Shown here piece after piece: positions 5,267 through 33,056 of a stretch of 64,000 bases of DNA. Positions within the stretch are counted from its first letter, which is position 1, and the number at the start of each line of letters is the position of its first letter. The position numbers and the translations under genes were made by a program. This stretch comes from Candidatus Hodarchaeota archaeon (GTDB lineage: Archaea; Asgardarchaeota; Heimdallarchaeia; Hodarchaeales; Hodarchaeaceae). The stretch is taken from contig JAEOTC010000038.1 in the NCBI GenBank assembly GCA_016840035.1, positions 78,760 to 142,759 on the forward strand, in the 5' to 3' direction. Under the pieces are notes generated by a model. It did no database searches and had not been told where the DNA came from. It saw nothing but the letters and a program-made list of their open reading frames with translations.

Positions 5267-5311
5267 AGTTTAATAAAACCCAGTTCCCATTCAGAGTTTA
5301 GGGATGAGTTT

Positions 5312-6445: not shown

Positions 6446-6470
6446 AAATAAATTGGTAAATTTCGGGTCT

Positions 6471-7649
6471 TCATAAAACAGCACTCTCAAGCAAGTTCTT
6501 TGTCTTTAAGGCCATCATGTATTCTTCATCGGTAGGAATAACCACAACTTCTATTTTGGATTCTGAAGATGAAATAATCACTTCTTCCTCTCCATTAGCT
6601 CCCTCGTTCTTTGAGATATCAATGGAAACATCTATACTATTCAGTCCCTTCACTATCAGTCTTCGAAAGTAAGAAGATCTCTCACCTATCCCACCTGTGA
6701 ACACAATCGCGTCTAATCCTCCCAAAGCAATAAGGTACGCTCCAATATATTTCCGAATTCTGTAGGCAGCCATCTGAACAGCTAATTCTGCAGAGTGACT
6801 CCCCTTCAGAGCACTTTCCTGGATATCCCGCATATCTCTAAAATTCCCTGTAATTCCCAATAAGCCACTCCTTGAATTTAATTCTTGATCGATTTGATCA
6901 ATGGTCAAATTTCCAGAACGCATCATAGCTAGTATTAAACCTGGGTCTATATCCCCCGATCGCGTGCCCATTATTAGGCCCTCTAAAGGAGTTAACCCCA
7001 TACTTGTATCAATTGATTTTCCATCATATACAGCTGTTACTGAAGCTCCATTCCCAAGATGTAAGACGATTAGCTTTTTAGATTTCTTTAAACTAAGTAA
7101 ACTTCTCGTTCTATTAGTCACATATTCAATAGATGTTCCATGAAACCCATATCTCCGGAAAGAATTTTCCTCATACCACTTTCCTGAAATCGCATATCTG
7201 TATGCATATTCTGGAATCGTAGCATGAAAAGAAGTATCAAAAACTGCAATATGAGGAATAGCTGTTAATTTTTTTTTACTAGCTCGGATTCCAATTAGAT
7301 TAGCGGGATTATGAAGTGGGGCAAGCTTTGATAGTTTTTCTATCTGAGATTCAACCTCAGTATCAATGATCAATTCTCTTCGGAACTGTTCTCCCCCATG
7401 TACTACACGGTGAGCTACAGCTTTAATCGTATTAATGTCGAAGAATGTTAAGACATAATCTACAGCCTCTTCATGAGTAGCACAACTTATTACCTTGGTA
7501 ACTTCCTCCTCCTTGCTTTTATGATATATCTTTGGTTCAGGGAGGCCTATTCGTTCCACTAATCCTTTAGCTATTAGCTGTTCTTTCTCCATGTTATAGA
7601 TCGAATATTTTAGAGAGGAAGATCCTGAATTTATCGTTAAAATTGTCAA
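6471..7649 (-). CDS. ackA: Acetate kinase
   Basis: A 392-residue acetate/propionate kinase that makes ATP and acetate from acetyl phosphate. The N terminus TILTINSGSSSLKYSIY and the blocks VAHRVVHGGEQF, RRYGFHGTSIEYV, LHLGNGASVTAV, GLTPLEGLIMGTRSGDIDP and FTGGIGERS are hallmarks of the family. The start is TTG 7649, with GAGGGG 5 bases upstream. It is the last gene of the microcompartment operon, 10 bases after deoC. Its product would turn the PduL-made acyl phosphate into ATP, probably in the cytosol, because no encapsulation-like helix is seen. Confidence 0.97.
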   Translation of the reverse strand: MTILTINSGSSSLKYSIYNMEKEQLIAKGLVERIGLPEPKIYHKSKEEEVTKVISCATHEEAVDYVLTFFDINTIKAVAHRVVHGGEQFRRELIIDTEVESQIEKLSKLAPLHNPANLIGIRASKKKLTAIPHIAVFDTSFHATIPEYAYRYAISGKWYEENSFRRYGFHGTSIEYVTNRTRSLLSLKKSKKLIVLHLGNGASVTAVYDGKSIDTSMGLTPLEGLIMGTRSGDIDPGLILAMMRSGNLTIDQIDQELNSRSGLLGITGNFRDMRDIQESALKGSHSAELAVQMAAYRIRKYIGAYLIALGGLDAIVFTGGIGERSSYFRRLIVKGLNSIDVSIDISKNEGANGEEEVIISSSESKIEVVVIPTDEEYMMALKTKNLLESAVL

Positions 7650-7659
7650 AAAGACCCCT

Positions 7660-9108
7660 CTAGTAGGTACCTTTAGGTGTATCAGTCCCTTTTACAATAG
7701 CAATGGATGCTGATGCACCAATCCTAGTTGCTCCAGCGTTTATCATCTGCTCTGCAATCTCGTGAGTTCTTATCCCTCCAGCTGCTTTTACACCCATTTC
7801 TGGACCTACTGTTTTTCTCATCAGAGCAATATCCTCAACTAATGCTCCTGCAGTACTGAAACCTGTAGAAGTTTTAACAAAATCTGCTCCACTTAATTTT
7901 GTTAACAGACTACCTTTAACTATTTGTTCCTTGGTTAGTAGAGCAGTTTCAAGAATGACCTTTACTATGGCTTTCCCTGCAGCGGCATTTACTACCGCTT
8001 GGATATCCTCCCTAACTAAGTCATCGTTACCTGATTTCAACGCTCCCACGTTAATAACCATGTCTACTTCATCTGCTCCATTTGCTACAGCATCTCGAGT
8101 TTCAATTGCCTTTACGGTGGGGGTAGTTGCTCCTAATGGAAATCCAATTACAGTACATACTTTCACTGAGCTACTTTTCAAATATTTGGCTGCTTTTGCT
8201 ACATTTGTAGGATTAATACATACTGATGCGAATTTATACGTTGCAGCTTCTTCACATAGTTGTTTAATCTCTTCTTCAGTTGCATCTGCACGGAGATTAG
8301 TATGGTCGATATACTGAGCAAGCTCCATATCATACCCATTTATCCCTGTCTCAGAGGTAATTCTTGTTGCTCCTCCATTAACTAATGCTTTAACAGCAGC
8401 TTGAGACTTTCCATCTAATCCAATCTCTTTCCCTGAAGTCCCAATTGTGTATGATCGATCAGAGGTGGTTGGGATATAGGGAGAGGGTTCTTGATCAGTT
8501 ATCTGATGAACATCAACAATTTTGATTCCCATAGTCCTTAATTGATCAATAATTCCCTCAATACGTCTATTCATTGCAGGTGGGACTTGATCTTTCTCAA
8601 TCTGACAACAGTAGATGGAATCATATGCTGCAATAACTGGTTTTCCATACATCAATCCAAATACTAGGGTTATAGTTCCCAAGGAATCTGCGTTCAAGGC
8701 CGCTACTTTAGCTGCAGTATTTAAGGATAATATAGGCACATAAATAACATCTACCCGACTTAAAATATTGTCAAAAAACTGTTCAGAATAATCAGTAATA
8801 ATTGTGGCTCCTTCAGAGACTTGTCTAATATCAGGTAAACCAATTATTTTTATTGCTGCACGAGTCATTACGATGTAAGTATTAGTATACGATTTTGAGA
8901 TTTTTTCTATTTGGTGCATAACTTCATTAATCTCTTTATTCCCCCCACATAGTAGAATTAAAGCTGAGTTTCCTGAAGCTATTGTATAATTGATTTTCCG
9001 ATTAGAAGTCTGTAAATTCGAATCGAACTGTTGTTTGGGAGCGAGATTATCTTGATCAAGCTTCCTCATCACTTCTTCAGTGATTTTCTGTATCATCTCA
9101 TTACTCAT
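7660..9108 (-). CDS. deoC: Flavoprotein-like domain fused to deoxyribose-phosphate aldolase
   Basis: A 482-residue fusion. Residues 1-20 form an amphipathic helix ([13 protein letters not shown]) of the type that targets enzymes into BMC shells. Residues 41-210 resemble the flavoprotein-like family found in BMC loci ([39 protein letters not shown]). After a linker, residues about 258-480 are a complete class I DeoC aldolase: EVDMV (D349), FVKTSTGF with the Schiff-base Lys412, and KAAGGIR with Lys441. DeoC cleaves 2-deoxyribose 5-phosphate into acetaldehyde and glyceraldehyde 3-phosphate, so it is the likely aldehyde-producing signature enzyme of this compartment. An extra family-like N-terminal domain makes it about twice the usual 220-260 residues. 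Confidence 0.93.
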
Positions 9109-9128
9109 TTTCTTTACCCAAAATTATT

Positions 9129-9419
9129 TTAACTTAATTCAGTTTGTTTTCCATCCACTTCAATATAATCAATAACACCTACTATTAATGCATCCACAGC
9201 GGCTTTGTCATTATGCATTATACCTCGTATAGAGTTACCTTCTCGGATAACAAGGACACAATCCCCGATTCCAGATTTGGCTACATCTAGAGCGATGATA
9301 GAAGGCTCAGTGAAATTTCCTTTCAGATCTATCGGACGTACCACAAGTATTTTTCCGTTTTCATGACTCTCAGTTTTAATTGGAGCAACTACATTGCCGA
9401 TTACTTTAGCAAGAATCAT
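9129..9419 (-). CDS. BMC-P shell protein (EutN/CcmL family pentamer)
   Basis: A 96-residue pentameric vertex protein. The EutN/CcmL fold is recognisable from AKVIGNVVAPIKTE, KILVVRPIDLKG, IIALDVAKSGIGDCVLVIREGNSI and the C-terminal VGVIDYIEVDG. These pentamers cap the vertices of the polyhedral shell. The ATG overlaps the TGA stop of the preceding BMC-P gene (ATGA at 9416-9419), suggesting translational coupling of two different pentamers. Confidence 0.95.
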   Translation of the reverse strand: MILAKVIGNVVAPIKTESHENGKILVVRPIDLKGNFTEPSIIALDVAKSGIGDCVLVIREGNSIRGIMHNDKAAVDALIVGVIDYIEVDGKQTELS

Positions 9420-9958
9420 TCTGTTTCACTTTCTACAATTTTTGGTTTAATTTCACGAATCTTTTTTGGTTTCTTCTTTCGAGTGGCCCTTTTTCTTGGT
9501 TTTGGTTTAACTACGGGCTTAATTTCTTCAACTACTTCGGGTTCCTCTACTTTCGTTTTCGGGATCGGTTCAAGTATCTCCTCTTTGGGAATTTCCCCGA
9601 TTTCTTCATCTAGACTTATATCAACTTGTTTTAATGTTGCTGGAGGGGCCTTCTTCTTCTTTCTCTTCTGAGGTTTGCGTTTTGCACTTTTTGTAACATA
9701 ATATTCCTCAATATATCCAACTATACACTCATCAATCGGAACGAGTTCCTTTGGAAAGACAATAGCTGCCTCCTTTTTACTTACTACATACACAATATCT
9801 CCAGGTCCTGCAGTTTCAATGCCATCAGCGGCAACATATGGACTTCCCAAGGGTTGAAGATTATCATCTAGACCTTGAACTACTAGAAGTCGGAGAGAAT
9901 TTAATCCTGGATCTTTTGTTGAGGCAACAACATTCCCTATTACTTTTCCAAGTTTCAT
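9416..9958 (-). CDS. BMC-P shell protein with long polyelectrolyte C-terminal tail
   Basis: Residues 1-88 are a standard EutN/CcmL pentamer domain (LGKVIGNVVASTKD, LLVVQGLDDN, YVAADGIETAGPGDIVYVV, CIVGYIEEYYV). About 90 further residues follow: a Lys/Arg-rich block (SAKRKPQKRKKKKAPP), an acidic Glu/Pro-rich block (EIPKEEILEPIP, VEEPEVVEEI) and a second basic block (KPKPRKRATRKKKPKK) before an acidic end. Ordinary family members are about 85-105 residues, so the tail is a true addition. It lies in frame with no sign of a sequencing error. A tail of this kind could bind nucleic acid, cargo or membranes, but this is inference. The start is ATG 9958, four bases after the rpiB stop. Confidence 0.93.
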   Translation of the reverse strand: MKLGKVIGNVVASTKDPGLNSLRLLVVQGLDDNLQPLGSPYVAADGIETAGPGDIVYVVSKKEAAIVFPKELVPIDECIVGYIEEYYVTKSAKRKPQKRKKKKAPPATLKQVDISLDEEIGEIPKEEILEPIPKTKVEEPEVVEEIKPVVKPKPRKRATRKKKPKKIREIKPKIVESETE

Positions 9959-9962
9959 GTAA

Positions 9963-10421
9963 TCACGCTGATTTTAAATATTTCAATTCAATCTCGGAAA
10001 TCTTATTTACTCTGGTCTCGTGTCTTCCACCACCGAAAGGAGTAGATAACCAAATCTTAACAATATTTTGCGCAATTCCTGGACCAATTACTCTCGCACC
10101 TAAAGTCAGGATGTTAGAATTATTGTGTTCACGAGCGGAATTCGCAGTAAATTCATCCGTGCAAGGAGTTGCTCGAATTCCTTTAATTTTATTTGCTACA
10201 ATTGCGCTAGCTACGCCTGTACCATCGATGAGAATCCCAACGGATTCAACTGAGACTGCAACTGTTTGTGCTACTAATAATGCAATATCAGGATAATCCA
10301 CAGGATCTGTAGAATAACAACCATAGTCCGCAACTTCGTATCCTATTCCTTTCAGGAATTTTATCAGATCATTTTTGAGATGGAAACCACCATGATCCGA
10401 TCCAATTATTATTTTCTTCAT
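9963..10421 (-). CDS. rpiB: Ribose-5-phosphate isomerase B family protein
   Basis: A 152-residue RpiB/LacAB-fold protein: IIIGSDHGGFHLKNDLIKFL at the N terminus, DYPDIA, GTGVASAIVANKIKGIRA, REHNNSNILTLGARVIG with the conserved His99, and GGGRHETRV. The family interconverts aldose and ketose phosphates (ribose 5-phosphate and ribulose 5-phosphate). The residue that is the catalytic Cys in enteric RpiB (CGTG) is Asp66 here (IDGTG), so the catalytic base or substrate may differ. Its place between shell genes suggests a sugar-phosphate feed step for the compartment. Confidence 0.93.
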   Translation of the reverse strand: MKKIIIGSDHGGFHLKNDLIKFLKGIGYEVADYGCYSTDPVDYPDIALLVAQTVAVSVESVGILIDGTGVASAIVANKIKGIRATPCTDEFTANSAREHNNSNILTLGARVIGPGIAQNIVKIWLSTPFGGGRHETRVNKISEIELKYLKSA

Positions 10422-10446
10422 TTGACTTCAACTTGTAATATAAAAC

Positions 10447-10998
10447 TCAAAGCAGAGTTTTTACTAGATCTGGATGAGGAGCAGGAATTACAGCAGTGGA
10501 TAATACTAATCCTTCTCCTTTTACACGATTAACCCCAGCATCTACAGCTGCTCGCACGGCACCCACTTCTCCTGTTAAAACAACAAACGCCTTTCCACCT
10601 ATTGCGCGACTCATCCGAATTTCGATTAACTGTACCTGCGCACTTTTAACAGCTTCGTCACCAACCATGATCGCTGTAGGAGCAGAATAAGTTTCTACTA
10701 CTCCTATCGCGCCTACTTTTTCAACTCCAGATGTACCCGCAATTGCTGGAAAAACCTCAGGATGTATATTGGGAATTACTGTGTAATTTACTAAGGTTTC
10801 ACCTGCTATTTCACTTCCAGCGATTAGAGAGCTTTGAACAGCTGCAACTGCTCCTTGAATAATGATTAAATATTTTCCAGGACATACTGGTGAGGCGAAT
10901 AATAGCTCGACTTCTGCTGTTTTCGCTATTGTATCGGCACTCAGTATACCTCGAGCAATTACATTTGTTTCTAGAACTCCTATAGCACGCATTTTCAT
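10447..10998 (-). CDS. BMC-T shell protein, PduT-like, with probable Fe-S site
   Basis: A 183-residue tandem-domain shell protein. Domain 1 spans about 1-88 and domain 2 about 94-183 (VGAIGVVETYSAPTAIMVGDEAVKSA). In the first domain PVCPGKY contains Cys39. PduT-type trimers carry a Cys in the same CPGKY context that binds a 4Fe-4S cluster at the central pore. The next-but-one upstream gene encodes the matching PduS-type flavoprotein/Fe-S protein. Two in-frame ATGs (10998 and 10992) lie close together. GAGG is better spaced for the second, giving MRAIGVLE as N terminus. Confidence 0.95.
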   Translation of the reverse strand: MKMRAIGVLETNVIARGILSADTIAKTAEVELLFASPVCPGKYLIIIQGAVAAVQSSLIAGSEIAGETLVNYTVIPNIHPEVFPAIAGTSGVEKVGAIGVVETYSAPTAIMVGDEAVKSAQVQLIEIRMSRAIGGKAFVVLTGEVGAVRAAVDAGVNRVKGEGLVLSTAVIPAPHPDLVKTLL

Positions 10999-11068
10999 TT
11001 TCCTCTAAGATTGTAAACAAAGATGAAAGTAGTGAGCATTAGCTGCTCTCTTGCAGCTAATTGTTTAT

Positions 11069-11347
11069 TCAACCTTTCTTTGGGAGAATACTCTCAACTT
11101 CATCATGGGGTCGAGGAATTACATGAGCTGAGGTTAGTTCACCAACTTTTCGTGCAGCGACTGCACCAGCTTCAACAGAAGCTTTCACAGCACCAACGTC
11201 ACCTCTAACCATTACAGTAACAAAACCACCGCCAATAACTTCGCGTCCCATTAAATGAACGTTCGCTGCTTTCACCATAGCGTCAGCTGCTTCAATAGAT
11301 GCAACTAACCCTTTTGTTTCTATCAATCCAAGTGCTTCTTTAGCCAT
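11069..11347 (-). CDS. BMC-H shell protein (hexamer)
   Basis: A single-domain Pfam00936-type shell protein of 92 residues: [60 protein letters not shown]. The segment after GREVI (GGGF) lines the hexamer pore. A longer frame begins with TTG 11359, but GGTGA at 11353-11357 is spaced five bases before ATG 11347, so that ATG is the better start. It is the most canonical of the two BMC-H proteins in the operon and probably the main facet tile. Confidence 0.96.
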
Positions 11348-11371
11348 TTTTTTCACCAATTTTTTTGTCTT

Positions 11372-12697
11372 TTATTTTGTCTTTTCAATGACAATTTCTT
11401 GTCCAATTTTGCGAATAATTCCGCTAATACTAGCATGAATTACTGCACCTAGTGACCCATCTGGAATCTTTCCTATGAGTGCACCTTTTTCAACCGAATC
11501 TCCTACTTTTACCGTTGGAATTGCAGGATCTCCGATATGTTGTTTGAGAGGGATGGAAACTTTTCGAATCTGTAATTTTCGTTTTCGTATTGGACATTCA
11601 TGATTATAATTCAATAGATCCAATCGTGAAATTAATCTTTTTACAGGTAATTTTCGATATTCCCTCTCAGGATGAATCGATAATACTTTTCGATTATGAG
11701 TATTCTTTAAACCCTCTACCCTCAACTGTCCCTTTACTTCTGTCATCATTTTACATGGATCCAACCCCATAGGACATCCATAATATGTACAAGCTCCACA
11801 TTCCACACAAAGGAATGTTCCCGTCATATAATCGGGTCTTTCTGGAGCACCCCATGCTATTCCTCGCATAACTTTGTCAGGATGTAATTCATGGCCCAAT
11901 AAGAATCTAGGACAGACATCTGTACATAATTGACATCTTATGCATGCTGCTTTGGTAACAATTACTTTGGATGAGATCCGTTCAGTTTTCATTCTGATTA
12001 CAAAATGATTCTCTGGCAAAACAATTATTCCAGAAGTTAATTTGGTAATAGGTTTTTTAGGGGCAATTACTGTACCCATCATGGGTCCATTTATCAATAC
12101 TTGATAATCATCGATTGTAGCTCCCCCTGCAGCTTTTATTGCATCCTTTATTGAGGTACCAATTGGAAATTCCATCGTAGAGGGGTTTTTAACAGCGCCT
12201 GTTATGGTTACATAACGAGATACTATGGGATTTCCTTCAGCGGCCTCAGCTAGATTGATCAATGTATAGACATTATTTACTACGACTCCAATGTCAAGAG
12301 GGAGTCCACTTTCCGGAATTATTTTACCTAAAGCTTCATAAACAAGAACATGTTCATCTCCAGCAGGATAAACATCATCGAGAAGGAATATCTCGATTCT
12401 GGAATCAGCTTTGACCACTTGTTTAAGCTTCTTAATTGCAGTTTTATACTTCCTTTTTACAGCGATTATTCCTCGCTTCGCCCCAGTGGCTTTCATTCCT
12501 AGCTGTAATCCAGTTATTAATTTTCCTGGACAGGTTGTCATTAATTGCTGATCCACTCTTAATAATGGTTCACATTCAGCTGCATTAACTATAAACGTAT
12601 CTACTTTCGCAGAAAGCTTCACATGTGTAGGAAAACCAGCTCCACCAGCTCCAACTATTCCAGAATTTCGTGCCATGTCTGCTATTTCGGAGCTCAC
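11372..12697 (-). CDS. pduS: PduS/RnfC-like Fe-S flavoprotein
   Basis: A 441-residue protein. It has an N-terminal RnfC/NuoF-like nucleotide and flavin domain (GIVGAGGAGFPTHVK, residues 13-27), an SLBB-like region (ITGAVKNPSTMEFPIGTSI), and a ferredoxin-like segment with C252, C255, C258, C262 and C297, C300, C303, C308 (CIRCQLCTDVCPR, CVECGACTYYGCP) for two Fe-S clusters. A C-terminal barrel-sandwich domain (VKVGDSVEKGALIGKI) completes it. PduS was first described as a cobalamin reductase. Here no B12 enzyme is present, so recycling NADH from the aldehyde dehydrogenase by passing electrons through the PduT-like shell protein is more likely (inference). The start is GTG 12697. Confidence 0.93.
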   Translation of the reverse strand: MSSEIADMARNSGIVGAGGAGFPTHVKLSAKVDTFIVNAAECEPLLRVDQQLMTTCPGKLITGLQLGMKATGAKRGIIAVKRKYKTAIKKLKQVVKADSRIEIFLLDDVYPAGDEHVLVYEALGKIIPESGLPLDIGVVVNNVYTLINLAEAAEGNPIVSRYVTITGAVKNPSTMEFPIGTSIKDAIKAAGGATIDDYQVLINGPMMGTVIAPKKPITKLTSGIIVLPENHFVIRMKTERISSKVIVTKAACIRCQLCTDVCPRFLLGHELHPDKVMRGIAWGAPERPDYMTGTFLCVECGACTYYGCPMGLDPCKMMTEVKGQLRVEGLKNTHNRKVLSIHPEREYRKLPVKRLISRLDLLNYNHECPIRKRKLQIRKVSIPLKQHIGDPAIPTVKVGDSVEKGALIGKIPDGSLGAVIHASISGIIRKIGQEIVIEKTK

Positions 12698-12724
12698 TTA
12701 TATTTGCCTCGTTTTCTTTTGATT

Positions 12725-14152
12725 TCAAATGATTCTAAAAGCATCCACTAGAGTACAACGTCTTTGACGTGTAAAAGTTCTTGCTGAGGTAAGTCCTTCT
12801 CCCGTTGGTCCTGCAATTGTCATAGTAGTATAGCCTTCCCCTCCGAATCCAATCCCAGCAAAGGAGGGGGCATTTTTGACAAAAATTGTAGTTTCGATAT
12901 CTTTTGCCACAAGACTCATATTTCCAACTGAATCGCTCCACATCATTGCTGTGTGTTTGAATCCATGTTCAGCCTTCTTTGCTTTTTGCAAAGCTTCTTC
13001 TATTGATTTCACTCTAACTATTGGTAAGACTGGCATCAACATTTCAGATATTACGAAGGGATGTTCATCATCAGGCACCTCTGCAATTATCAACCGGATA
13101 TTGTCACTAACCTGCACTCCGATTCCCTCAAGAAGTATTTTGGCATCTTTTCCGATGAAGTCCCTGTTTACTATGGGAAATCTCCCTTTCTTTCCTTTGA
13201 AAACGAGATTAGTCAGTTGGACTATCTGATCTCCAACAATTTCATATGCACCATAATTCTTCATTTCTGCTTTTAATCGATCAGTGATGACATCAAATGC
13301 GAATACTTCTTTTTCTACAATACATACAATATTATTATCAAAACTTGCGCCTTCTACTATTCCTCGGGCTGCTTTTTGAATATTTGCAGTATCATCAACT
13401 ATTACAGGAGGATTTCCTGGTCCTGCACATATCGCTTTTTTTCCAGATTGCATTGCAGCTTTTACTACTGCACTTCCTCCTGTTACAACTAGACACCGAA
13501 TCTTTTTGTGTGTCATTAAAGTCTGGGCTGACTCAATCGTAGGGGATATGGTTGATGTAAGAACATTTTCTGGTCCCCCCGCTTCGAGAATTGCCCTATT
13601 CAATAATCTCACAGCTTCATTACTTGCTCTTTTAGCTGATGGATGAGGATTAAATACTACGCTATTTCCTGCCGTAACCATTGATATTCCATTGTTAATT
13701 ATCGTTGCTGTTGGGTTTGTTGAAGGAGTAATTGACCCAATTACGCCATAAGGAGCCATTTCAACAAGTGTTAATCCTTTATCACCCGTCCATGTATTTG
13801 GTACCAGATCTTCTAAGCCTGGAGTTTTTCGAGCACAGAGCAAATTCTTTGCTACTTTATCCTCTAATCTCCCTAGACCAGTTTCTTGGATTGCTAATTC
13901 AGCTAGATATCGTGCATGTTTAATAGCGGAGTCACGCATCGATTGTATGATTTCTTTTCTTCTCTCCAAAGATAAATCCATTAGTGCTACTTGACTCTTT
14001 TCCGCAGCCTCTATTGCCTGTTCAATGTCCTGGAATATTCCTCCACCTGCACTAGTGGGAATATTCTCCAATCCTGAATAGACTTGATAAGCTCTTATTT
14101 TCTGTACAACAGAATTGACGATTTTTGCAATTTGTTGTTCGTCATATGACAT
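12725..14152 (-). CDS. pduP: CoA-acylating aldehyde dehydrogenase, PduP/EutE type
   Basis: A 475-residue enzyme that converts an aldehyde, CoA and NAD+ into acyl-CoA and NADH. Motifs are APYGVIGSITPSTNP, FNPHPSAK, VTGGSAVVKAAM, AGPGNPPVIVD, and NNIVCIVEKE with the catalytic Cys277. The first 20 residues (DEQQIAKIVNSVVQKI) form an amphipathic helix followed by a linker, the classic encapsulation peptide. With DeoC in the same operon the substrate is probably acetaldehyde. The gene lies between a BMC-P gene and pduS. Confidence 0.96.
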   Translation of the reverse strand: MSYDEQQIAKIVNSVVQKIRAYQVYSGLENIPTSAGGGIFQDIEQAIEAAEKSQVALMDLSLERRKEIIQSMRDSAIKHARYLAELAIQETGLGRLEDKVAKNLLCARKTPGLEDLVPNTWTGDKGLTLVEMAPYGVIGSITPSTNPTATIINNGISMVTAGNSVVFNPHPSAKRASNEAVRLLNRAILEAGGPENVLTSTISPTIESAQTLMTHKKIRCLVVTGGSAVVKAAMQSGKKAICAGPGNPPVIVDDTANIQKAARGIVEGASFDNNIVCIVEKEVFAFDVITDRLKAEMKNYGAYEIVGDQIVQLTNLVFKGKKGRFPIVNRDFIGKDAKILLEGIGVQVSDNIRLIIAEVPDDEHPFVISEMLMPVLPIVRVKSIEEALQKAKKAEHGFKHTAMMWSDSVGNMSLVAKDIETTIFVKNAPSFAGIGFGGEGYTTMTIAGPTGEGLTSARTFTRQRRCTLVDAFRII

Positions 14153-14199
14153 TTATCTACCTTCGTTTCGTTTTTTATTTTCTTACATAAAGGGAAATC

Positions 14200-14490
14200 T
14201 TATTTTCGATAAGTTTCTTTTCCATTTATTTGGATAAAATCTATGATAGCTTGGATCGTTGCATCTGTGGGTTTATCCTTGGTCATTGCAGTTAAACGAG
14301 ATGAACTTCCAGTAACAACTAGTACTAATTCGTTCTCTCCCGCACCAACTGCATCAATTGCCACGAAAGGAGAACTCTCTGGTTTTAAATCAGTCATATC
14401 CACTGGTTGTACTATCATTAATTTAAAGCCTTTAATACTGGCATCCTTCTCGGTACTTACTACATTTCCTATTACTTTACACACTTTCAT
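14200..14490 (-). CDS. BMC-P shell protein (EutN/CcmL family pentamer)
   Basis: A third pentameric shell protein of the operon, 96 residues: CKVIGNVVSTEKD, KLMIVQPVDM, FVAIDAVGAGENELVLVVTGSSSRL, and IIDFIQINGKE at the end. The fold is complete and without extension. GGAG lies about 8 bases before ATG 14490. Three different BMC-P proteins in one operon is common in sugar-phosphate type loci and implies mixed or conditional vertices. Confidence 0.95.
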   Translation of the reverse strand: MKVCKVIGNVVSTEKDASIKGFKLMIVQPVDMTDLKPESSPFVAIDAVGAGENELVLVVTGSSSRLTAMTKDKPTDATIQAIIDFIQINGKETYRK

Positions 14491-14501
14491 GTAAATATCT
14501 C

Positions 14502-15221
14502 CTAAATCTTAATTATCTTTATATCAAGCATTTTAGCTTTTTCTTGTGCTAAGGGGGTAATAATAGTTGAATGGGGTACAAATATTTCGTGAATTTTACC
14601 TTTTAATCCCTCTAAATAATCCTCGGTAATTAAATCTGGTATAGCTGGAGTATGTTTGACAAATTGATCTTCTAAGTCCTCTATGTCAACAAGTCTGAAT
14701 CCCATTTCGATTAAAGTAGATAAATATCGACTCAGATTATTAGTTAACATACCCGATGGGCCATAGTCAAATGTTAAATCTGTGGGAGGAAAAGGTGTTA
14801 CAATATAAACAGGAATTTTAAATAACAACCCTTGAAGTAATAAATTAACAGTTGAATTGGAATCTTCAAATTTTGTTATTTTTTTTGCTATTTCAAAACT
14901 AAAGGCACCAAACATAATTGATTTAAGATTACTGTAAAAATTTAGGCAAAAATCTCCAAAAGGATTAACTAAAACGTCCATTGTGGGAATTGAACCTGCT
15001 TTTGTGGTTATTTTCTTAGCCTGGTCAATTTCATCCTTTGTCCAGATCAGGACTTGCATTTTTTGTTCGGCTAATCTAATTAGGGATTGTAATAATTCAT
15101 CCAATCCTTGTCCCATATGGGTTAAGACACCTAGGACATCGTAAGGACCTAGGTTATGCTCATTCTTGAGAACACTCTTAACTTGCTGTGTAACGAGTAA
15201 TTCGAGCTCTTTCTCATTCAT
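14502..15221 (-). CDS. BMC-associated flavoprotein-like protein
   Basis: A 239-residue soluble protein. It starts with an amphipathic helix (ELELLVTQQVKSVLKNE) like a BMC encapsulation peptide. The body alternates strands and helices (DVLGVLTHMGQGLDELLQSL, MQVLIWTKDEI, SIMFGAFSFEIAKKI, IPVYIVTPFP) and resembles in layout the N-terminal half of the DeoC fusion protein of this operon. The C terminus (HSTIITPLAQEKAKMLDIKIIKI) looks like the end of PduM or flavoprotein-like BMC proteins. I assign it to this loosely defined group only. A cofactor role is not shown by any motif. Confidence 0.6.
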   Translation of the reverse strand: MNEKELELLVTQQVKSVLKNEHNLGPYDVLGVLTHMGQGLDELLQSLIRLAEQKMQVLIWTKDEIDQAKKITTKAGSIPTMDVLVNPFGDFCLNFYSNLKSIMFGAFSFEIAKKITKFEDSNSTVNLLLQGLLFKIPVYIVTPFPPTDLTFDYGPSGMLTNNLSRYLSTLIEMGFRLVDIEDLEDQFVKHTPAIPDLITEDYLEGLKGKIHEIFVPHSTIITPLAQEKAKMLDIKIIKI

Positions 15222-15236
15222 GATGCTTCACTCTTG

Positions 15237-15548
15237 TTAATCTCTTCCAGGATCCTCTTCTACGCTTGAAGTTCGACTTCTGACTTTCTCAATAAGATCA
15301 ACCGTCACCTGATCAGGTCTTGGAATTACATTAGTTAATAAACCACAGGAGATCTGACGTAGTTGGACTTTTGCTGCTTCAATTGCTTCACGGACAGCAG
15401 CGACCTCTCCCTCAATTATCACAATAACCAATCCCCCTGAAACACGTTTTAAGGAAATAAGGCTCACATCTGCGGTTTTCATGGCCGTATCTGTTGCCAC
15501 AATGGCTCCTATCCGACCGCATGTCTCCATAAATCCTAAAGCTTTCAT
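15237..15548 (-). CDS. BMC-H shell protein (hexamer)
   Basis: A single-domain shell protein of about 103 residues (KALGFMETCGRIGAIVATDTAMKTADV, GGLVIVIIEGEVAAVREAIEAAKVQL, NVIPRPDQVTVDL) with a short acidic C-terminal extension (SVEEDPGRD). An in-frame GTG at 15557 exists, but GGTGA at 15554-15558 lies five bases before ATG 15548. That same GGTGA contains the TGA stop of the upstream citrate synthase-PduL gene, so the two are translationally linked. Cys12 and Cys34-region differences from the other BMC-H suggest a specialised tile. Confidence 0.95.
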   Translation of the reverse strand: MKALGFMETCGRIGAIVATDTAMKTADVSLISLKRVSGGLVIVIIEGEVAAVREAIEAAKVQLRQISCGLLTNVIPRPDQVTVDLIEKVRSRTSSVEEDPGRD

Positions 15549-15553
15549 TAAAA

Positions 15554-17410
15554 TCACCTGAACGGAGAATAAGATCCTTCTTTTAAATCCAAAATCAGAC
15601 TCCCCATTTCTCCCGTATTCAGTGCAAGAGCATTACCCTCGTCAAGGTCTAAATGGAGCTCCAAATTATAATCCGGGTGAATTCTAACCATGATCTCGTC
15701 TAGGATTCCAGCTCGGGTTCCAGGAAATTGAACAGCAACTATCTGTCGATCTGACACATTTAACCTTTGCGCATCTTTTGGTGACATGTGGATGTGTCGC
15801 GCTGCGAAAATGACTCCCTTATCCAAAGTGATAGCTCCCTTTGGACCAATTATGTGTACTCCTGGAGTATCTCTTAAATCTCCTGATTGACGTGTTGGTG
15901 GATTAATACCTAATACATAACCGTCACTCCGAGATATTTCAACTTGAGTTTCGTCTCTGAAGGGGCCAAGAATACGAACTCCATAGATGGCTCTTTTGGG
16001 GCCGATTAGATCAACAACTTCTTTGCATGCATACTGTTTTGGTTGAGTTAAGGAATTAAGGGGAGTTAAAACTGCTTTTTCTCCAAATAATTTGTGAAAA
16101 TCGGCTTTTGAAAGGTGGATGTGACGTGCAGATAAGGATACTGGAATTAAATGATCATCGAATACTTTAGTCAGCTCATCGGTGACTAATCTCTTCACTA
16201 GTTCTCCAGCTGCTGACTGTGTACTTCGTTGTGAAATGGGTTGATATTCACAACCTAATGGACCGCAATATCTTCCTACATATTCAGCAGAGGGTCTATA
16301 AATCACTGGTTTGACGGTAGGAGTTTCGGGATACTTCTCTTCTAAAACATGAGCAGTCCAACCAGCGACTCTCGATGTAGTAAAAATCGGTGTAAAGAGT
16401 TCAACTGGGATATTTAAGCTTGTATATACCGTGGCACCATATAGATCCACATTAGGATATATTCCACGATTTTTTCGCTTCTTAAATTCTTTTTGAGTAA
16501 TCTCAACCAACTTATTGGTAGTTTCATACATCCATTGAGCTAATCCACCCTTCCTTCTCACAAGATCTGCAGCCATTTCCTTCAATATTTTGGCTCTCGG
16601 ATCTGTAGTTTTATATACGGCATGTCCCATCCCCATAATTCGTTTACCTTCATTAAATCGATTTTTGACCCATTCCTCAGCACTTGAGACTTTCTTAATC
16701 TCCATTAAGCTTTCATAAACTAAATGATTAGCTCCCCCATGATACATCCCTGATAAAGAACCAATGGCACCAGAAATAGATGCATATAGATCCGCTCCAG
16801 TAGATGCAATGACCCGAGCTGTGAATGTGGAAGCATTGAAAGAGTGTTCTGCATGTAGAATTAGTGTGACATCAAAGATCCTTGCTTCTTCATCAGTTGG
16901 GATACTCCCATGAAGCATGTAGAGGAAATTTGATGCATATTTTAGATTCTTATTTGGAGCGATTGGTTCTTTATTGCTACGAATTCTCTCCCATGCGGTC
17001 ACAATAATAGGAAGCCGAGCTATTATTCTAATTGCAATATTTCGATCGGATTCTCTTTTTCCAGTCCCGATCTCGTTGTTGTATCCTGCTAGTAAAGCTA
17101 ATGAAGATTGGAGTACACTCATAGAAGGGGTATTCTTTGAGGTTTTCTGTAAATGTGAGATTAATTGTGGTGGTAAATCCTGATTTGAAATTATTGCGTT
17201 CTTAAAACTCTCCAATTGATCAAAAGAGGGGAGGTTTCCGTACAGAAGTAAGTAAACTACCTCTTCGTAGGTTGAATTTCTTGCTAACTCATTAATGTCA
17301 TAACCTCGGATAAATAGATTGCCTTTTTCACCTTCTATAAGACAAATATTTGTATCCGCAACCTCAACACCGCGAAGTCCTGTTGATTTGTGGCTATGTT
17401 CTTCAATCAT
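15554..17410 (-). CDS. Citrate synthase - PduL phosphotransacylase fusion protein
   Basis: One uninterrupted 618-residue frame with two complete enzymes. Residues 1-390 are a short-type citrate synthase with the catalytic set: LHAEHSFNAST (His189), GMYHGGANH (His224), GMGHAVYKTTDPRA (His263), NVDLYGATVY (Asp322), FTTSRVAGW. Residues about 420-610 are PduL, the BMC-type phosphate acyltransferase: ARHIHLS (H430, H432), ARHIHMS (H539, H541) and ELHLDLDEGN (H586), the zinc ligands of that family. Between them, 400-418 (AGELVKRLVTDELTKVF) is an amphipathic helix like the encapsulation peptide normally at the PduL N terminus. Citrate synthase releases CoA by joining acetyl-CoA to oxaloacetate, while PduL releases CoA by forming acetyl phosphate. 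The first gene of the operon. A 2-methylcitrate synthase activity is possible. Confidence 0.93.
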   Translation of the reverse strand: MIEEHSHKSTGLRGVEVADTNICLIEGEKGNLFIRGYDINELARNSTYEEVVYLLLYGNLPSFDQLESFKNAIISNQDLPPQLISHLQKTSKNTPSMSVLQSSLALLAGYNNEIGTGKRESDRNIAIRIIARLPIIVTAWERIRSNKEPIAPNKNLKYASNFLYMLHGSIPTDEEARIFDVTLILHAEHSFNASTFTARVIASTGADLYASISGAIGSLSGMYHGGANHLVYESLMEIKKVSSAEEWVKNRFNEGKRIMGMGHAVYKTTDPRAKILKEMAADLVRRKGGLAQWMYETTNKLVEITQKEFKKRKNRGIYPNVDLYGATVYTSLNIPVELFTPIFTTSRVAGWTAHVLEEKYPETPTVKPVIYRPSAEYVGRYCGPLGCEYQPISQRSTQSAAGELVKRLVTDELTKVFDDHLIPVSLSARHIHLSKADFHKLFGEKAVLTPLNSLTQPKQYACKEVVDLIGPKRAIYGVRILGPFRDETQVEISRSDGYVLGINPPTRQSGDLRDTPGVHIIGPKGAITLDKGVIFAARHIHMSPKDAQRLNVSDRQIVAVQFPGTRAGILDEIMVRIHPDYNLELHLDLDEGNALALNTGEMGSLILDLKEGSYSPFR

Positions 17411-17587
17411 TGGTAGGCCTTTTTATTTCAAGTAAGATTTCGGTATCAAAAGGTGAAACTTCCTTCCCTTAAAAATCGCTCTTTCAAACGTCTGACGATT
17501 CAAAATGGTAATTTCTTCCCAAACTTACTGAATGTTAATCTGGTTAATATGAGAGAGTTATTTTGTATTATAGATAACCAATAACAC

Positions 17588-17595
17588 TATATAAT
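17588..17595 (+). promoter_or_regulatory. TATA box upstream of the Cys-cluster protein gene
   Basis: TATATAAT lies about 52 bases before the GTG at 17644, within a short AT-rich run, and GGAGGT (17630-17635) follows as ribosome-binding site. Spacing fits an archaeal promoter with a leader of roughly 25-30 bases. The same divergent region must also hold the promoter of the BMC operon, which I could not place. Confidence 0.5.
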
Positions 17596-17643
17596 AGATA
17601 GTAGCTTTTATTAGAAGACTATTCTCTTTGGAGGTTATTATCT

Positions 17644-18591
17644 GTGATGATTAGAGGCTTTTCAAAATATACTTCTTTTACTTGTTCGGATTGTCACATG
17701 AAATGCTGTGCGACCGAGTTCAATCTTCCAATAAGTGGGTTAGAAAAAGAATATCTTACCCAAAATTTTCCAGAATATCGACATTACTTACAATCTACAG
17801 AAAAAGGATCTTTTATACTCCGAGGAAACTCATGTCCTTTCTTGACAACCGCTGGATTGTGCCAACTGCATGCTAAATCAATAAAACCTCTTACATGTAG
17901 AATTTACCCCTTAATTTTCTGGCGATTCAACCAAAAAGATACTTTAGTTTCTATACATCCCTGTCGGGGACATGGATTTCAATGGTATTCTAGAAAGAAA
18001 TCATCTGTTGGTAATAGCTTTATCAATCAGCTATTATCTGCTAGTAAGGAGTATTATGACACTTATTGGGGGGAAGAAATCGATGCAAACAATCCTTATG
18101 AGGGAATTTCTCAAGCAAGAATTAAAGACCAACTCGAAGCTTATCGTCATACTTCAAAGGATAAATTGCTAGTAACCAACTTGAAAAACCCTGATTTATC
18201 CTCACGAATTCCATTTTCTCAGGCGTTTCAGGAGAAGGCTTTAGAGATCATCGATGGAGGGAGCATTGGAAATTTTTTAAATTCTGTTTTCAACTGGTTA
18301 ATTTGGAGTCCAGTAGGCTTGCACTTATCAATAAAAAATGCTCAAACGCTTTTTACTACCGCTGCATTATGGTTAATTGACCAAACTGAGGTAAATTCGA
18401 ACATACTTTCCTCTATTCCTCCTGAATCACAGTATTATGAGCAAACATCCTCGTTCTATGCGAGTTCCTTAACTCCTTCTTTCTGGGAAAATATCCTCGC
18501 TCAGAAAACCCTCCCCACTCTAAGTACCTTTGCAGAGAAAGTCCGCTTAATTCTCATGGGAGAACTTCCACAAGATGATTTACTTAAATGA
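17644..18591 (+). CDS. YkgJ-family Cys-cluster (Zn/Fe-chelating) protein
   Basis: A 315-residue protein. Its first 115 residues hold the YkgJ-type cysteine pattern: CSDCHMKCC near the N terminus, then CPFL, GLCQLH, LTCRIYPL, and a later HPCRGHG. The family is named as a putative zinc- or iron-binding domain and its role is poorly known. Some members are linked to protein or RNA modification. The remaining 200 residues are helical and unassigned. It starts at GTG 17644 or ATG 17647, both served by GGAGGT. It is divergent from the BMC operon, so a regulatory link is possible but unsupported. Confidence 0.75.
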   Translation: MMIRGFSKYTSFTCSDCHMKCCATEFNLPISGLEKEYLTQNFPEYRHYLQSTEKGSFILRGNSCPFLTTAGLCQLHAKSIKPLTCRIYPLIFWRFNQKDTLVSIHPCRGHGFQWYSRKKSSVGNSFINQLLSASKEYYDTYWGEEIDANNPYEGISQARIKDQLEAYRHTSKDKLLVTNLKNPDLSSRIPFSQAFQEKALEIIDGGSIGNFLNSVFNWLIWSPVGLHLSIKNAQTLFTTAALWLIDQTEVNSNILSSIPPESQYYEQTSSFYASSLTPSFWENILAQKTLPTLSTFAEKVRLILMGELPQDDLLK

Positions 18592-18691
18592 AATCGTTCT
18601 TTTTGAAAAACGTGAACTTGTAGGTAAACTGTTAAGAAGGAATCAGAAAAGACTATAGAATGACGAAGAGTCGCTATACGAGTGATTTATT

Positions 18692-18874
18692 ATGGCAGGA
18701 AGTCACGGAAGCCTTACAAAAGCTGGGAAAGTTCGAAATCAAACTCCTAAAGTTGAAGGACGTAAAAGAAAAGGATTAACACCTATCTTACGCAACAAAA
18801 AGAATTATATTAAGAGAATTGTTAAAGAGATGCCGGTAGGTCAACCTGAATATCGTCAAGAACGTCGAAGGTAA
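18692..18874 (+). CDS. rps30e: 30S ribosomal protein eS30
   Basis: A 60-residue basic protein with the family signature GSHGSLTKAGKVRNQTPKV and a basic C terminus. eS30 is a small-subunit protein shared by eukaryotes and some archaea, where it lies near the decoding centre. Unlike in eukaryotes, it is not fused to a ubiquitin-like domain. The length is normal for archaea. Confidence 0.92.
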   Translation: MAGSHGSLTKAGKVRNQTPKVEGRKRKGLTPILRNKKNYIKRIVKEMPVGQPEYRQERRR

Positions 18875-18951
18875 ATTTACCGATTTTTACTTTTAAAATT
18901 AACCTTTGAATTAAATTTCTTTTTGCTTCTAAATATCTACTATTTTTTAAC

Positions 18952-19473
18952 CTATTTTATTGCTTTCACTACCCCATATTTTCCTCGAGAGTAGGTTAAC
19001 ATTCCTTTATAACCCTCTAATCTCCATTGATTATCTATATGCAATGCCACAATTCGTGAAAGGAATAAATCGTGTGTCCCAAGGGGAATAATCTGTTCTA
19101 CCTTGCATTCCATACTCACTGGGCATTCTTTAATCGAGGGAATATTAACCATTTTACTTTCTTCTCTGGTGAAATTACACTCCGACCATTTATCTATGTC
19201 TCTTCCAGACTGTGTTCCACAAATTTCAACTTGTTTAAGTATTGTTTCTGTTGGAAAGTTAATTACAAATTCCTTGGTTTCTTTTATTAGAGAGTATGTG
19301 TACCTTCCAGGTCTCACTCCAATGGAAACAATGGGAGGATCAGAACAACATGTGCCAGCCCATGAAAGTGTAATAATGGATTCTTTTGTACCTTGTTTCG
19401 CTGATACTAATATAACTGGATTAGGATAAAAGAAAGTACTAATTTTAACTTCATTTTTCATAATGAAACTCAT
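18952..19473 (-). CDS. Flavin reductase-like (flavoredoxin) domain protein
   Basis: A 173-residue FMN-binding split-barrel protein. PNPVILVSAKQGTKESIITLSWAGTCCSDPPIVSIGV at the start and the later LIKETKEFVINFP and GRDIDKW are typical of the flavin reductase/flavoredoxin family, which moves electrons between NAD(P)H, FMN and partner proteins. Partner and substrate cannot be deduced. The start could be M1 or the internal M5, which differ by 12 bases. Confidence 0.85.
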   Translation of the reverse strand: MSFIMKNEVKISTFFYPNPVILVSAKQGTKESIITLSWAGTCCSDPPIVSIGVRPGRYTYSLIKETKEFVINFPTETILKQVEICGTQSGRDIDKWSECNFTREESKMVNIPSIKECPVSMECKVEQIIPLGTHDLFLSRIVALHIDNQWRLEGYKGMLTYSRGKYGVVKAIK

Positions 19474-19548
19474 CCAATGTCGAGAGGTTTCTATTTTGTT
19501 ACCTTTAGAATGGATAATTTTACGATAATAAAGGAAGTAAAAAAGGCC

Positions 19549-19562
19549 TTGGTATATAAATC
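19549..19562 (-). promoter_or_regulatory. TATA box for the flavoredoxin gene
   Basis: Read on the minus strand the element is TTTATATA flanked by GG and CC, a near-consensus archaeal TATA box, about 80 bases before ATG 19473. It implies a leader of roughly 50 bases. No plus-strand gene follows it. Confidence 0.45.
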
Positions 19563-19608
19563 CCTTCCCAAATTAATAATGTTTCATGCCTCAGGTTGAG
19601 AAAACCAG

Positions 19609-19899
19609 CTATCTTTTAATATGATTTCCGCACCTTTCACAAAATCGTGATTCGGGAGATAATTGAGCTCCGCACTGAGTACAGAAACGAATTTGTTTCA
19701 TTTTTGGTTTTAAATCACTTTTTGGATCCTTTTTTTTCGCATAATCCGCCCAAGCTGATTTATGAGGATCTAATCCCTTTTCCTCAGCATATTTAAACCA
19801 TACAGACTTTTCTGTTCTCTTTTTTTTCAATTGCGCACCCCTGGCTGCCACTAGCAATGTTACTCCTTTAGTTAGGAATTCGATTGAATTATGCCTCAA
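19609..19899 (-). CDS. Zinc-ribbon protein
   Basis: A small protein with a C-terminal double CxxC ribbon (FCTQCGAQLSPESRFCERCGNHI) after a helical basic segment (SVWFKYAEEKGLDPHKSAWADYAKK). The listed frame begins at ATG 19899 (96 residues). The first 23 residues look unlike the rest, and a TTG at 19830 with GGTG five bases upstream may be the real start, giving 73 residues. Its 5' end lies close to a tRNA gene on the same strand. Function is unknown; such ribbons commonly bind nucleic acid or protein. Confidence 0.65.
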   Translation of the reverse strand: MRHNSIEFLTKGVTLLVAARGAQLKKKRTEKSVWFKYAEEKGLDPHKSAWADYAKKKDPKSDLKPKMKQIRFCTQCGAQLSPESRFCERCGNHIKR

Positions 19900-20095
19900 G
19901 GACTAAAAAAGGGTTATCATTACGGAATTCATACACTATTTTCTCGTAGGAATTCCACCTTTGCACAACTAAGACTTGAACAGGTGGAATTGCCCTTTAT
20001 AGCGGATTATAAAGAATTTAACTCCTTCTATTCACGTATTTCCTCCCAAAAACAGCAAAGATTTCTTAAAGACAGTTTCAAGGATAAAAATAGAG

Positions 20096-28421: not shown

Positions 28422-28892
28422 TTACTCAACCATTAAATAGGTCTGATTTCTGATAAAAACTGTTTGCAACCCTTTTTTTCTAGCTAATCGTTTCAATTGT
28501 TTATCATTAGTAGCAATGACCCCATTGTAACGCTCTCCATATTCTAGAAGTATAAAATCAATATTCTTATGGTCATAATCTGTATCCCAAATCTCACATT
28601 CTTTATCTACGAAAAAAAGAGCAATTTGAGCCTCTTTTTCTACCTTTTTTTTACCAGACTTATTTAATTTTGATAACTCATCGAAAACTGGTTTCAATAC
28701 CACGAGCTTCCTTTTTTCAGGAAAAACACGATCGAGCTCAAAGGTTAAATTAAAGCCTTTCATTTGACCCATGGCCATAAGAAAGTTAGTATCAAGAAAA
28801 ATAGTTTTTACAGAATCTCCAAATGACGAGATTATTGCCCCGCCCGTTGTTCTTTTCCACCTGTGATAGTTCCCCATCCTATCAAACGCCAT
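28422..28892 (-). CDS. PIN-domain RNase-like protein (FCF1/UTP24-like)
   Basis: A 156-residue protein. The PIN core starts with IFLDTNFLM and includes KPVFDELSKL, DFILLEYGERY and IATNDKQLKRLARKKGL, supplying the usual acidic metal residues. In archaea and eukaryotes single-domain PIN proteins of this type process rRNA. The 5' end overlaps the 3' end of the aIF2-gamma gene by 61 bases in another frame; no later ATG, GTG or TTG precedes the domain, so this overlap, or a non-standard start, must be real. No antitoxin gene is next to it, which argues against VapC. Confidence 0.8.
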   Translation of the reverse strand: MAFDRMGNYHRWKRTTGGAIISSFGDSVKTIFLDTNFLMAMGQMKGFNLTFELDRVFPEKRKLVVLKPVFDELSKLNKSGKKKVEKEAQIALFFVDKECEIWDTDYDHKNIDFILLEYGERYNGVIATNDKQLKRLARKKGLQTVFIRNQTYLMVE

Positions 28893-32771: not shown

Positions 32772-33056
32772 GATAATCACTCCAGAGTTAATTAATTTTC
32801 CATACTCCTCAGAATACTGTTTGATCACCTGAAATACAGGTTATCTCAATTTCAAACGCGCGTTAAATTAGTGATACCATATTAAATAAGCTATTTCACC
32901 AGATTTCTTTGGTAAACTTGCGATCGTTTAGCTTACAGGTCATGGAATAGGAAATCCTAACACATTGAATTACTTACCGTTGATTGAAAGCTAAAATTTA
33001 TGACCATATTGATTGTGTGTTGATATATCGTAGAAAGGTTCGGAGAATGTAAATTT

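Follow-up and report, generated by a model that had tools for sequence, protein, structure and literature searches.

A conserved citrate synthase–PduL fusion heads a putative SPU-type microcompartment operon in an Asgard archaeon

Introduction

Among described microcompartments (BMCs), the SPU (sugar-phosphate utilisation) loci are the closest to the locus studied here. According to the passages on this class in PMC4207490 (Axen 2014) and PMC8217296 (Sutter 2021), they encode a DeoC-type pfam01791 aldolase, RpiB (pfam02502), an acylating aldehyde dehydrogenase, PduL and shell proteins of the BMC-H, BMC-T and BMC-P types. In the reasoning given in these passages, sugar phosphate is converted to acetaldehyde and then to acetyl-CoA through DeoC and the acylating dehydrogenase. 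The SPU loci treated in PMC8217296 are bacterial and come from 26 phyla, and the main text of that source mentions neither archaea nor citrate.

The two enzymes joined in the protein described below are known as separate proteins. The PduL of known structure (5cuo) is a free protein with an N-terminal encapsulation peptide, and its zinc ligands are His48, His50, Glu109, His157, His159 and His204, as described in the structural passages of PMC4784909. Citrate synthases (CSs) of the archaeal/Thermus type (1ixe, 1aj8) stand alone. In the 64,000-nucleotide stretch of DNA analysed here (the window), in contrast to the bacterial SPU loci, the host is archaeal and a CS is fused to PduL inside a BMC operon.

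Results

The fusion gene lies on the minus strand at 15554..17410 and reads from 17410 to 15554 as one intact frame of 618 residues. A first-pass annotation, made from the letters alone, had given the same coordinates and length and omitted the strand. It had claimed a complete CS joined to a complete PduL, and a domain search of the whole protein finds both at full length. The CS domain (PF00285, 410 bits) spans residues 11-373 (16292..17380, minus strand) and covers positions 1-356 of the 357 in the profile, while the PduL domain (PF06130, PTAC/PduL, 236.6 bits) spans residues 423-597 (15620..16144, minus strand) and covers 1-175 of 176. Between them, the AlphaFold2 model places a linker helix at residues 400-417 (16160..16213, minus strand). 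In this model, built from 121 sequences, each of the two domains is well folded (mean pLDDT 86.7, pTM 0.63), and the helix falls within a low-confidence interdomain stretch; in an earlier model from 29 sequences the PduL part was poorly folded (mean pLDDT 63.2). With the fusion model as the Foldseek query, all 50 PDB matches listed are citrate/methylcitrate synthases, matched over the CS part. The junction, at which a stop or frameshift had been considered, contains neither, and the fusion is also present in relatives.

Both domains occur together in 34 of the 120 protein matches listed, the window's own included, and 30 of these 34 span at least 99% of the window protein's length. A PduL search added two further fusions (P0128, P0130). 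All named fusion carriers among the matches listed belong to Hodarchaeales, Hodarchaeota or Heimdallarchaeota, and the best three contig matches are metagenome-assembled genomes of Candidatus Hodarchaeota (two) and Candidatus Heimdallarchaeota, with 81-83% identity over the whole length. Of 195 relative genomes, 97 match P0001 (E <= 0.001), mostly via the CS part only. Seven carry the full-length fusion without a stop, namely the window's own (G000) and G001, G002, G005, G006, G008 and G011. An eighth, G010, has CS and PduL as neighbouring separate genes: the CS ends at its own stop and, 80 nt away, PduL has its own start and helix, which makes a frameshift an unlikely cause of the split.

Both domains evolve under purifying selection. 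Against G001, dN/dS is ~0.04 in the CS part and ~0.06 in PduL, synonymous sites being close to saturation (seven genomes, five of them compared pairwise with G000). The linker is less constrained (pN/pS ~0.4), yet its frame remains open. Since the two domains are joined in 34 of the 120 matches listed and in 7 of 195 genomes, and since selection acts on both, chance and assembly error are excluded; the fusion is real and conserved.

The fusion is the first gene of a 13-gene minus-strand operon with six shell genes, in agreement with the first reading of the locus as a BMC operon. The twelve genes behind it, all on the minus strand, begin with a BMC-H shell protein (15237..15557, PF00936), whose gene shares 4 bases with that of the fusion. 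A 239-aa protein with an N-terminal encapsulation-like helix and a C-terminus weakly matching TIGR02536 (14502..15221) and a first BMC-P protein of the EutN/CcmL family (14200..14490, PF03319) come next. The acylating aldehyde dehydrogenase of the PduP/EutE type (12725..14152, PF00171) also begins with an encapsulation-like helix and scores 660 bits against NF011927 (cut-off 403). The nearest named bacterial proteins among its matches are EutE, including Myxococcota EutE at 58-61%. It is followed by a PduS/RnfC-like Fe-S flavoprotein (11372..12697; PF01512, PF10531 and PF13534, with TIGR01945 above cut-off), a second BMC-H protein (11069..11359, PF00936) and a PduT-like BMC-T protein (10447..10998) with two PF00936 stretches and a TIGR02526 match under cut-off. 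This BMC-T protein has a cysteine in a CPGKY motif, which we take to resemble the Fe-S cysteine of PduT. The remaining genes encode the sugar-phosphate isomerase RpiB (9963..10421; PF02502, TIGR01120 above cut-off), a second BMC-P protein with a charged C-terminal extension (9416..9958, PF03319), a third BMC-P protein (9129..9419, PF03319), the deoxyribose-phosphate aldolase DeoC (7660..9108; PF01791, TIGR00126 at 287 bits against a cut-off of 117.3) and, last, acetate kinase (6471..7649; PF00871, TIGR00016 above cut-off). DeoC has an N-terminal extension of ~260 aa that opens with an encapsulation-like helix.

With two BMC-H, one BMC-T and three BMC-P proteins, the shell set is complete. We class the locus as that of a putative SPU-type microcompartment because both defining enzymes, the DeoC-type pfam01791 aldolase and RpiB (pfam02502), occur in it. 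Domain profile scans matched no operon gene to alcohol dehydrogenase, diol dehydratase or the prp families, and no Rfam family matched within window positions 5000-20000. Three BMC-P genes are also a feature of the HO-type BMC of myxobacteria (Haliangium), as the part of PMC8217296 on that type describes. The Myxococcota EutE matches of the aldehyde dehydrogenase are a further point in common. The HO-type BMC is of the double-stacked trimer type; the BMC-T protein of the present locus resembles PduT.

The operon is confined to a small group of genomes. The PF00936 shell domain was found in 8 of 227 phylum genomes (8 of 195 in an earlier set), all of one genus, in a search whose controls, E. 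coli and Synechococcus elongatus, gave the expected matches. These are the same eight in which CS and PduL are fused (seven) or side by side (one); 4 of the 12 genomes of the genus have neither shell genes nor the fusion. The complete 13-gene order is present in six of the eight (the window's G000 and G001, G002, G008, G010, G011). G006 has the same order minus acetate kinase at that spot, and in G005 a run of N interrupts the operon, leaving the fusion visible and the remainder hidden. The gene upstream of the operon is identical in kind across all seven relatives.

The host is an Asgard archaeon, and the nearest named records are Hodarchaeota and Heimdallarchaeota. Contamination or a binning error was considered and rejected: the window encodes proteins with archaeal aIF2-gamma and aIF5B domains, named from those domains, 11-15 kb from the operon; the same neighbours recur in relatives; and the operon of G006 lies within a 4.94-Mb contig. 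In G005 the surroundings of the fusion include a gene for a ubiquitin-conjugating enzyme, one for ribosomal protein L44 and two encoding Arf-type GTPases.

The active sites of both halves are conserved. The CS domain is ~39% identical to the archaeal/Thermus-type enzymes 1ixe and 1aj8 and alike in fold and active site, although it has a second enzyme attached. Its residues H189, H224, H263, R272, D322, R347 and R372 are invariant in 29 of 29 aligned fusions; their roles we take from family knowledge and from alignments to 1iom and 1aj8. The same alignment, from which P0008, P0020, P0032, P0034 and P0038 were omitted as partial, shows S427, H430, H432, E491, H539, H541 and H586 of PduL invariant in all 29. 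The residues on which the first-pass annotation had based its two complete enzymes (H189, H224, H263 and D322; H430, H432, H539, H541 and H586) are thus all present and invariant. Alignment to 5cuo equates H430, H432, E491, H539, H541 and H586 with the zinc ligands His48, His50, Glu109, His157, His159 and His204, so that the domain is the same and the six ligands, with Ser45, are kept in 29/29. Of 15 active-site residues checked, 14 are invariant and R485 is the sole exception. R485 aligns with the phosphate-binding Arg103 of 5cuo and is present in the window's protein and in 22/29 fusions; lysine replaces it in the other seven (P0021, P0022, P0023, P0025, P0027, P0028, P0029).

This conservation bears on a structural reading of the fusion, in which two joined dimeric enzymes would cross-link the core and nucleate its assembly, with the CS chemistry incidental or the citrate staying inside. 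CS is a dimer. So is PduL, according to the passage on its quaternary structure in PMC11157265. Because both partners are dimeric the fusion can form networks, and the helix lies in the hinge of the AlphaFold2 model. A scaffold does not readily explain why seven catalytic or oxaloacetate residues of CS are invariant in all 29 fusions, or why its dN/dS is so low (with dS near saturation), and encapsulation-like helices are also found on CSs without PduL (P0036, P0039, P0041). We regard a purely structural role as quite improbable.

The junction itself can be traced to the ends of the separate proteins. Free CSs of the same clade (P0035, P0044, P0045, P0055, P0071) end shortly after ...C(G)xxxC..P(L)..R, and separate PduLs open with a helix ahead of the core, as in P0135 (MEKDQLTDLTRRLIIQEVQKTQ) and likewise P0131, P0133, P0136, P0138 and P0140. 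Both ends are kept in the fusion, which therefore consists of a CS to its natural end and a PduL from its helix on. By this comparison, the linker helix putatively corresponds to the encapsulation-type helix with which separate PduLs begin. In 5cuo the corresponding peptide is N-terminal; here the helix is an internal linker after a whole CS. The amphipathic helix is N-terminal in the separate PduLs and in P0036, P0039 and P0041, and helices similar to that of the linker begin the aldehyde dehydrogenase, DeoC and the 239-aa protein of the operon. Linker positions 404, 408, 409 and 413 are hydrophobic and positions 406, 411 and 412 polar in 29/29 fusions. The hydrophobic moment, checked in five fusions and by itself weak evidence, is high in P0001 (rank 7 of 602 windows), P0016 (8/602) and P0025 (16/593), and ordinary to moderate in P0002 (102 of 602) and P0030 (110/602). 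We infer that the linker helix may still be able to bind shell proteins.

If this internal helix were blocked, the protein could lie outside the shell, its CS part serving as the cytosolic TCA-cycle enzyme and the fusion achieving co-regulation only. In favour of such a role, the fusion is the sole full-length CS found in five of the eight shell-bearing genomes (G000, G002, G005, G008, G011). These five are 71-89% complete and all eight 70-96%, so that the absence of other CS genes is no proof. Against it, CS-PduL also comes first in the shell operon of the seven other genomes (split into two genes in G010; operon interrupted in G005), the helix pattern is conserved in 29/29, and kindred CSs have terminal encapsulation-like helices. 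We consider the cytosolic reading unlikely.

These kindred CSs suggest a broader pattern. Three CSs without PduL, P0036, P0039 and P0041, carry an N-terminal encapsulation-like helix. The tail L(I/V)TE...(I/V)TPLA ends these three and P0037, P0040, P0043, P0047 and P0049. TIGR02536, an ethanolamine-utilisation family, matches the tails of P0036 (4.5e-6) and P0039 (4.8e-9), both far below the family cut-off. None of the 227 phylum genomes holds one of these CSs with encapsulation-like helices. Matching lengths of the longest contig hint, short of proof, that P0039 (named Odinarchaeota), the PduL P0138 and the aldehyde dehydrogenase P0266 may share a contig (60956), and likewise P0036 and the PduL P0145 (131120), and P0041 and the aldehyde dehydrogenase P0277 (16296). 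Because kindred CSs bear such helices without PduL, CS looks like a recurrent BMC cargo.

Quick trees with SH-aLRT support only were built for both domains. The 95-row CS tree comprises 28 fusions, 10 CSs with tails and a further 29 sequences from P0035-P0120, for the most part every third, together with 16 phylum loci and 12 of 80 contig-search loci; the 28 are drawn from the 30 fusions covering at least 99% of the query, and P0008 (partial), P0009 and the shorter P0020 were omitted. In it the fusions, the tailed CSs and the G010 CS form one clade (SH-aLRT 95), nested in a 69-row group (SH-aLRT 99) that excludes all 11 bacterial rows; named members of this group are archaeal and most members are unnamed. 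The 92-row PduL tree holds 28 fusions, 13 rows called separate and every second of P0146-P0247. Here a single clade (SH-aLRT 98), distinct from the bacterial-type rows, unites the fusions with 12 of the 13 rows called separate; P0143, entered among the separate PduLs, is a fusion fragment. From these clades, an archaeal-type CS appears to have joined a BMC-type PduL within these archaea. The separate PduLs P0135, P0131, P0132 and P0133 are placed among the fusions. In the CS tree, P0024 and P0026 are set off from the remaining fusions, with the tailed P0049 beside them. These placements may reflect fission or repeated fusion; a single origin of the fusion is possible.

The metabolic setting was compared across the genus. 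Besides the fusion, a second full-length CS is found in only two of the eight shell-bearing genomes, G001 and G006, each time immediately before PrpD; in G010 other PF00285 matches occur only as pieces. PrpD is present in 5 of 12 genus genomes (G001, G003, G004, G006, G010) and was not found in five of the eight shell-bearing ones, including the window's own (87% complete). Aconitase occurs in 12/12 genus genomes (as a fragment in G005) and the isocitrate dehydrogenase family in 11/12.

These data allow the substrate of the CS domain to be considered. The first-pass annotation had offered a methylcitrate path as one outcome, and the domain could in principle be a 2-methylcitrate synthase using propionyl-CoA: its best NCBIfam model is TIGR01800 (2-methylcitrate synthase/citrate synthase II; 411 bits, under the 421.3 cut-off), the PduL family accepts propionyl-CoA too, and PrpD is encoded in three of the eight shell-bearing genomes (G001, G006, G010). 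A methylcitrate role is nonetheless unlikely because PrpD was not found in the other five and the second full-length CS, where present, adjoins it; in G006 a separate run encodes PrpB, CS, PrpD and a PrpE-like protein. In addition, the DeoC of the locus would yield acetaldehyde, and no operon gene matched diol dehydratase. Overall, propionyl-CoA is very improbable as the substrate.

The citrate-binding domain of ATP-citrate lyase (PF16114) occurs in 9 of 12 genus genomes, that is, in 6/8 shell-bearing versus 3/4 shell-less ones. It does not track the shell genes, and ATP-citrate lyase as a compartment-specific partner is unsupported. PF16114 was not found in the shell-bearing G001 and G002. 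These two genomes encode short PF00285 proteins (open frames of 266 and 257 aa), the size of citryl-CoA lyase. In G006, genes for aconitase and an isocitrate dehydrogenase-like protein adjoin those of the two lyase-like subunits. The window's genome has two adjacent lyase-like subunits and a 259-aa protein above the citryl-CoA lyase cut-off.

Discussion

The fusion is predicted to reside in an SPU-type microcompartment and to free CoA in two ways, through acetyl phosphate and through citrate, a reading to which we give a probability of roughly 0.55. The first-pass annotation had proposed two such parallel CoA-recycling routes, and we too judge them the likeliest reading. In this model, the lumenal acylating aldehyde dehydrogenase would produce acetyl-CoA and NADH. 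PduL would convert acetyl-CoA to acetyl phosphate, from which acetate kinase would make ATP, and the CS domain would condense acetyl-CoA with oxaloacetate to citrate. The CoA from both reactions would go back to the aldehyde dehydrogenase. Since no operon gene matched alcohol dehydrogenase, electrons would probably exit through PduS and the PduT-like shell protein. On leaving the compartment, citrate would serve aconitase and isocitrate dehydrogenase in the cytosol, or ATP-citrate lyase; the model requires that oxaloacetate and citrate cross the shell. The fusion likely co-locates two competing users of acetyl-CoA and would carry CS in on the encapsulation helix of PduL. Encapsulation, activity, direction and flux of the fusion are predictions at this stage.

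The direction of the CS reaction could also be the opposite. The compartment might break down citrate: CS would work backwards, turning citrate and CoA into oxaloacetate and acetyl-CoA, and the PduL attached to it would draw the acetyl-CoA on towards acetyl phosphate and ATP. In favour, acetate kinase is encoded together with PduL, a fused PduL would be in the best position to pull an unfavourable reverse reaction, and other anaerobes are known to run CS in this direction. However, the equilibrium of CS lies strongly toward citrate, and lumenal acetyl-CoA would already be supplied by DeoC and the acylating dehydrogenase. Citrate cleavage would also be covered elsewhere, by proteins with the ATP-citrate lyase citrate-binding domain in six of the eight shell-bearing genomes and by the citryl-CoA lyase-like protein of the window's own genome. 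Citrate fermentation thus seems an unlikely function, about as improbable as a cytosolic one.

The two-exit model invites comparison with the eukaryotic citrate shuttle, in which CS is mitochondrial and ATP-citrate lyase cytosolic. Here the acetyl-CoA of the compartment would exit as citrate, and cytosolic ATP-citrate lyase would free acetyl-CoA again. The two would work alike, acetyl units leaving a compartment as citrate to be released by the lyase. The eukaryotic shuttle uses a membrane compartment, whereas a protein shell would be used here; the analogy proposed is functional, and homology of the compartments is not claimed. The host group has been proposed as sister to eukaryotes in the portions of PMC10307638 that deal with its phylogeny (a paper with an author correction, PMC12960242), and a compartmental CS with ATP-citrate lyase outside is therefore a testable parallel. 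Recruitment of CS to the organelle may have occurred through fusion to PduL or through encapsulation helices of the CS's own. The joint reading, that an Asgard protein organelle houses CS, runs a citrate shuttle and has recruited CS in several ways, we put forward only tentatively, as possible with the odds against it.

The first-pass annotation knew of no described BMC with CS as a core enzyme, and we found no report of CS as a BMC enzyme, or of BMCs in Asgard or other archaea, in the literature searched, bioRxiv and most subscription papers lying outside its coverage. The main text of PMC10307638 and of PMC8813620 makes no mention of microcompartments. In Atribacterota JS1, CS genes are absent, according to the passage on this group in PMC10826368. 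The archaeal host and the CS-PduL fusion are, as far as found, new relative to SPU-type BMCs. Our results extend catabolic microcompartments, as predicted from their genes, to archaea, and the BMC core gains an enzyme of the TCA cycle. Should lumenal acetyl-CoA be exported in a second form, as citrate, metabolosomes would supply biosynthesis besides ATP formation, and the recycling of CoA would no longer be exclusive to PduL.

The junction region of the citrate synthase–PduL fusion contains a CGPLGC motif (window 16250-16267, minus strand; residues 382-387 of the fusion), both cysteines of which are unchanged in all 29 aligned fusions and are also found in eight compared C-termini of free citrate synthases. 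In the PduL part, the phosphate-contacting Arg103 of structure 5cuo corresponds to R485 of the window's fusion. According to PMC4784909, all PduL homologues have this arginine, whereas seven fusions (P0021, P0022, P0023, P0025, P0027, P0028, and P0029) carry lysine at the equivalent site. A further database protein, P0134 (329 aa), apparently contains two PduL N-terminal halves in tandem.

Among the shell-bearing relatives of the same genus, G010 encodes citrate synthase and PduL as separate genes on the reverse strand (locus L121, 13440-15397), with a gap of 80 nt between them. Another of them, G006, has two ATP-citrate lyase-like subunits adjoining an isocitrate dehydrogenase-like gene and an aconitase gene (locus L156, 4261-10682). 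A second pair in G006, of the citryl-CoA synthetase/ATP-citrate lyase kind, comprises an ATP-grasp protein (428 aa) and a CoA-ligase plus citrate synthase-like protein (713 aa; locus L164, 3075-6499). Some 11-15 kb from the BMC operon, the minus strand of the window carries genes at 28832-30343 and 30978-32828 whose products have the domains of aIF2-gamma and aIF5B.

The separate PduL of G010 bears its own N-terminal helix. DeoC (window 7660-9108) begins with an encapsulation-like helix, located at the start of a ~260-residue N-terminal extension that matches no Pfam family above the cut-off. Three archaeal-type citrate synthases without PduL (P0036, P0039, and P0041) likewise have N-terminal encapsulation-like helices of their own, together with a C-terminal tail, which is TIGR02536-like in P0036 and P0039. 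These helix-bearing citrate synthases probably represent another way of BMC recruitment.
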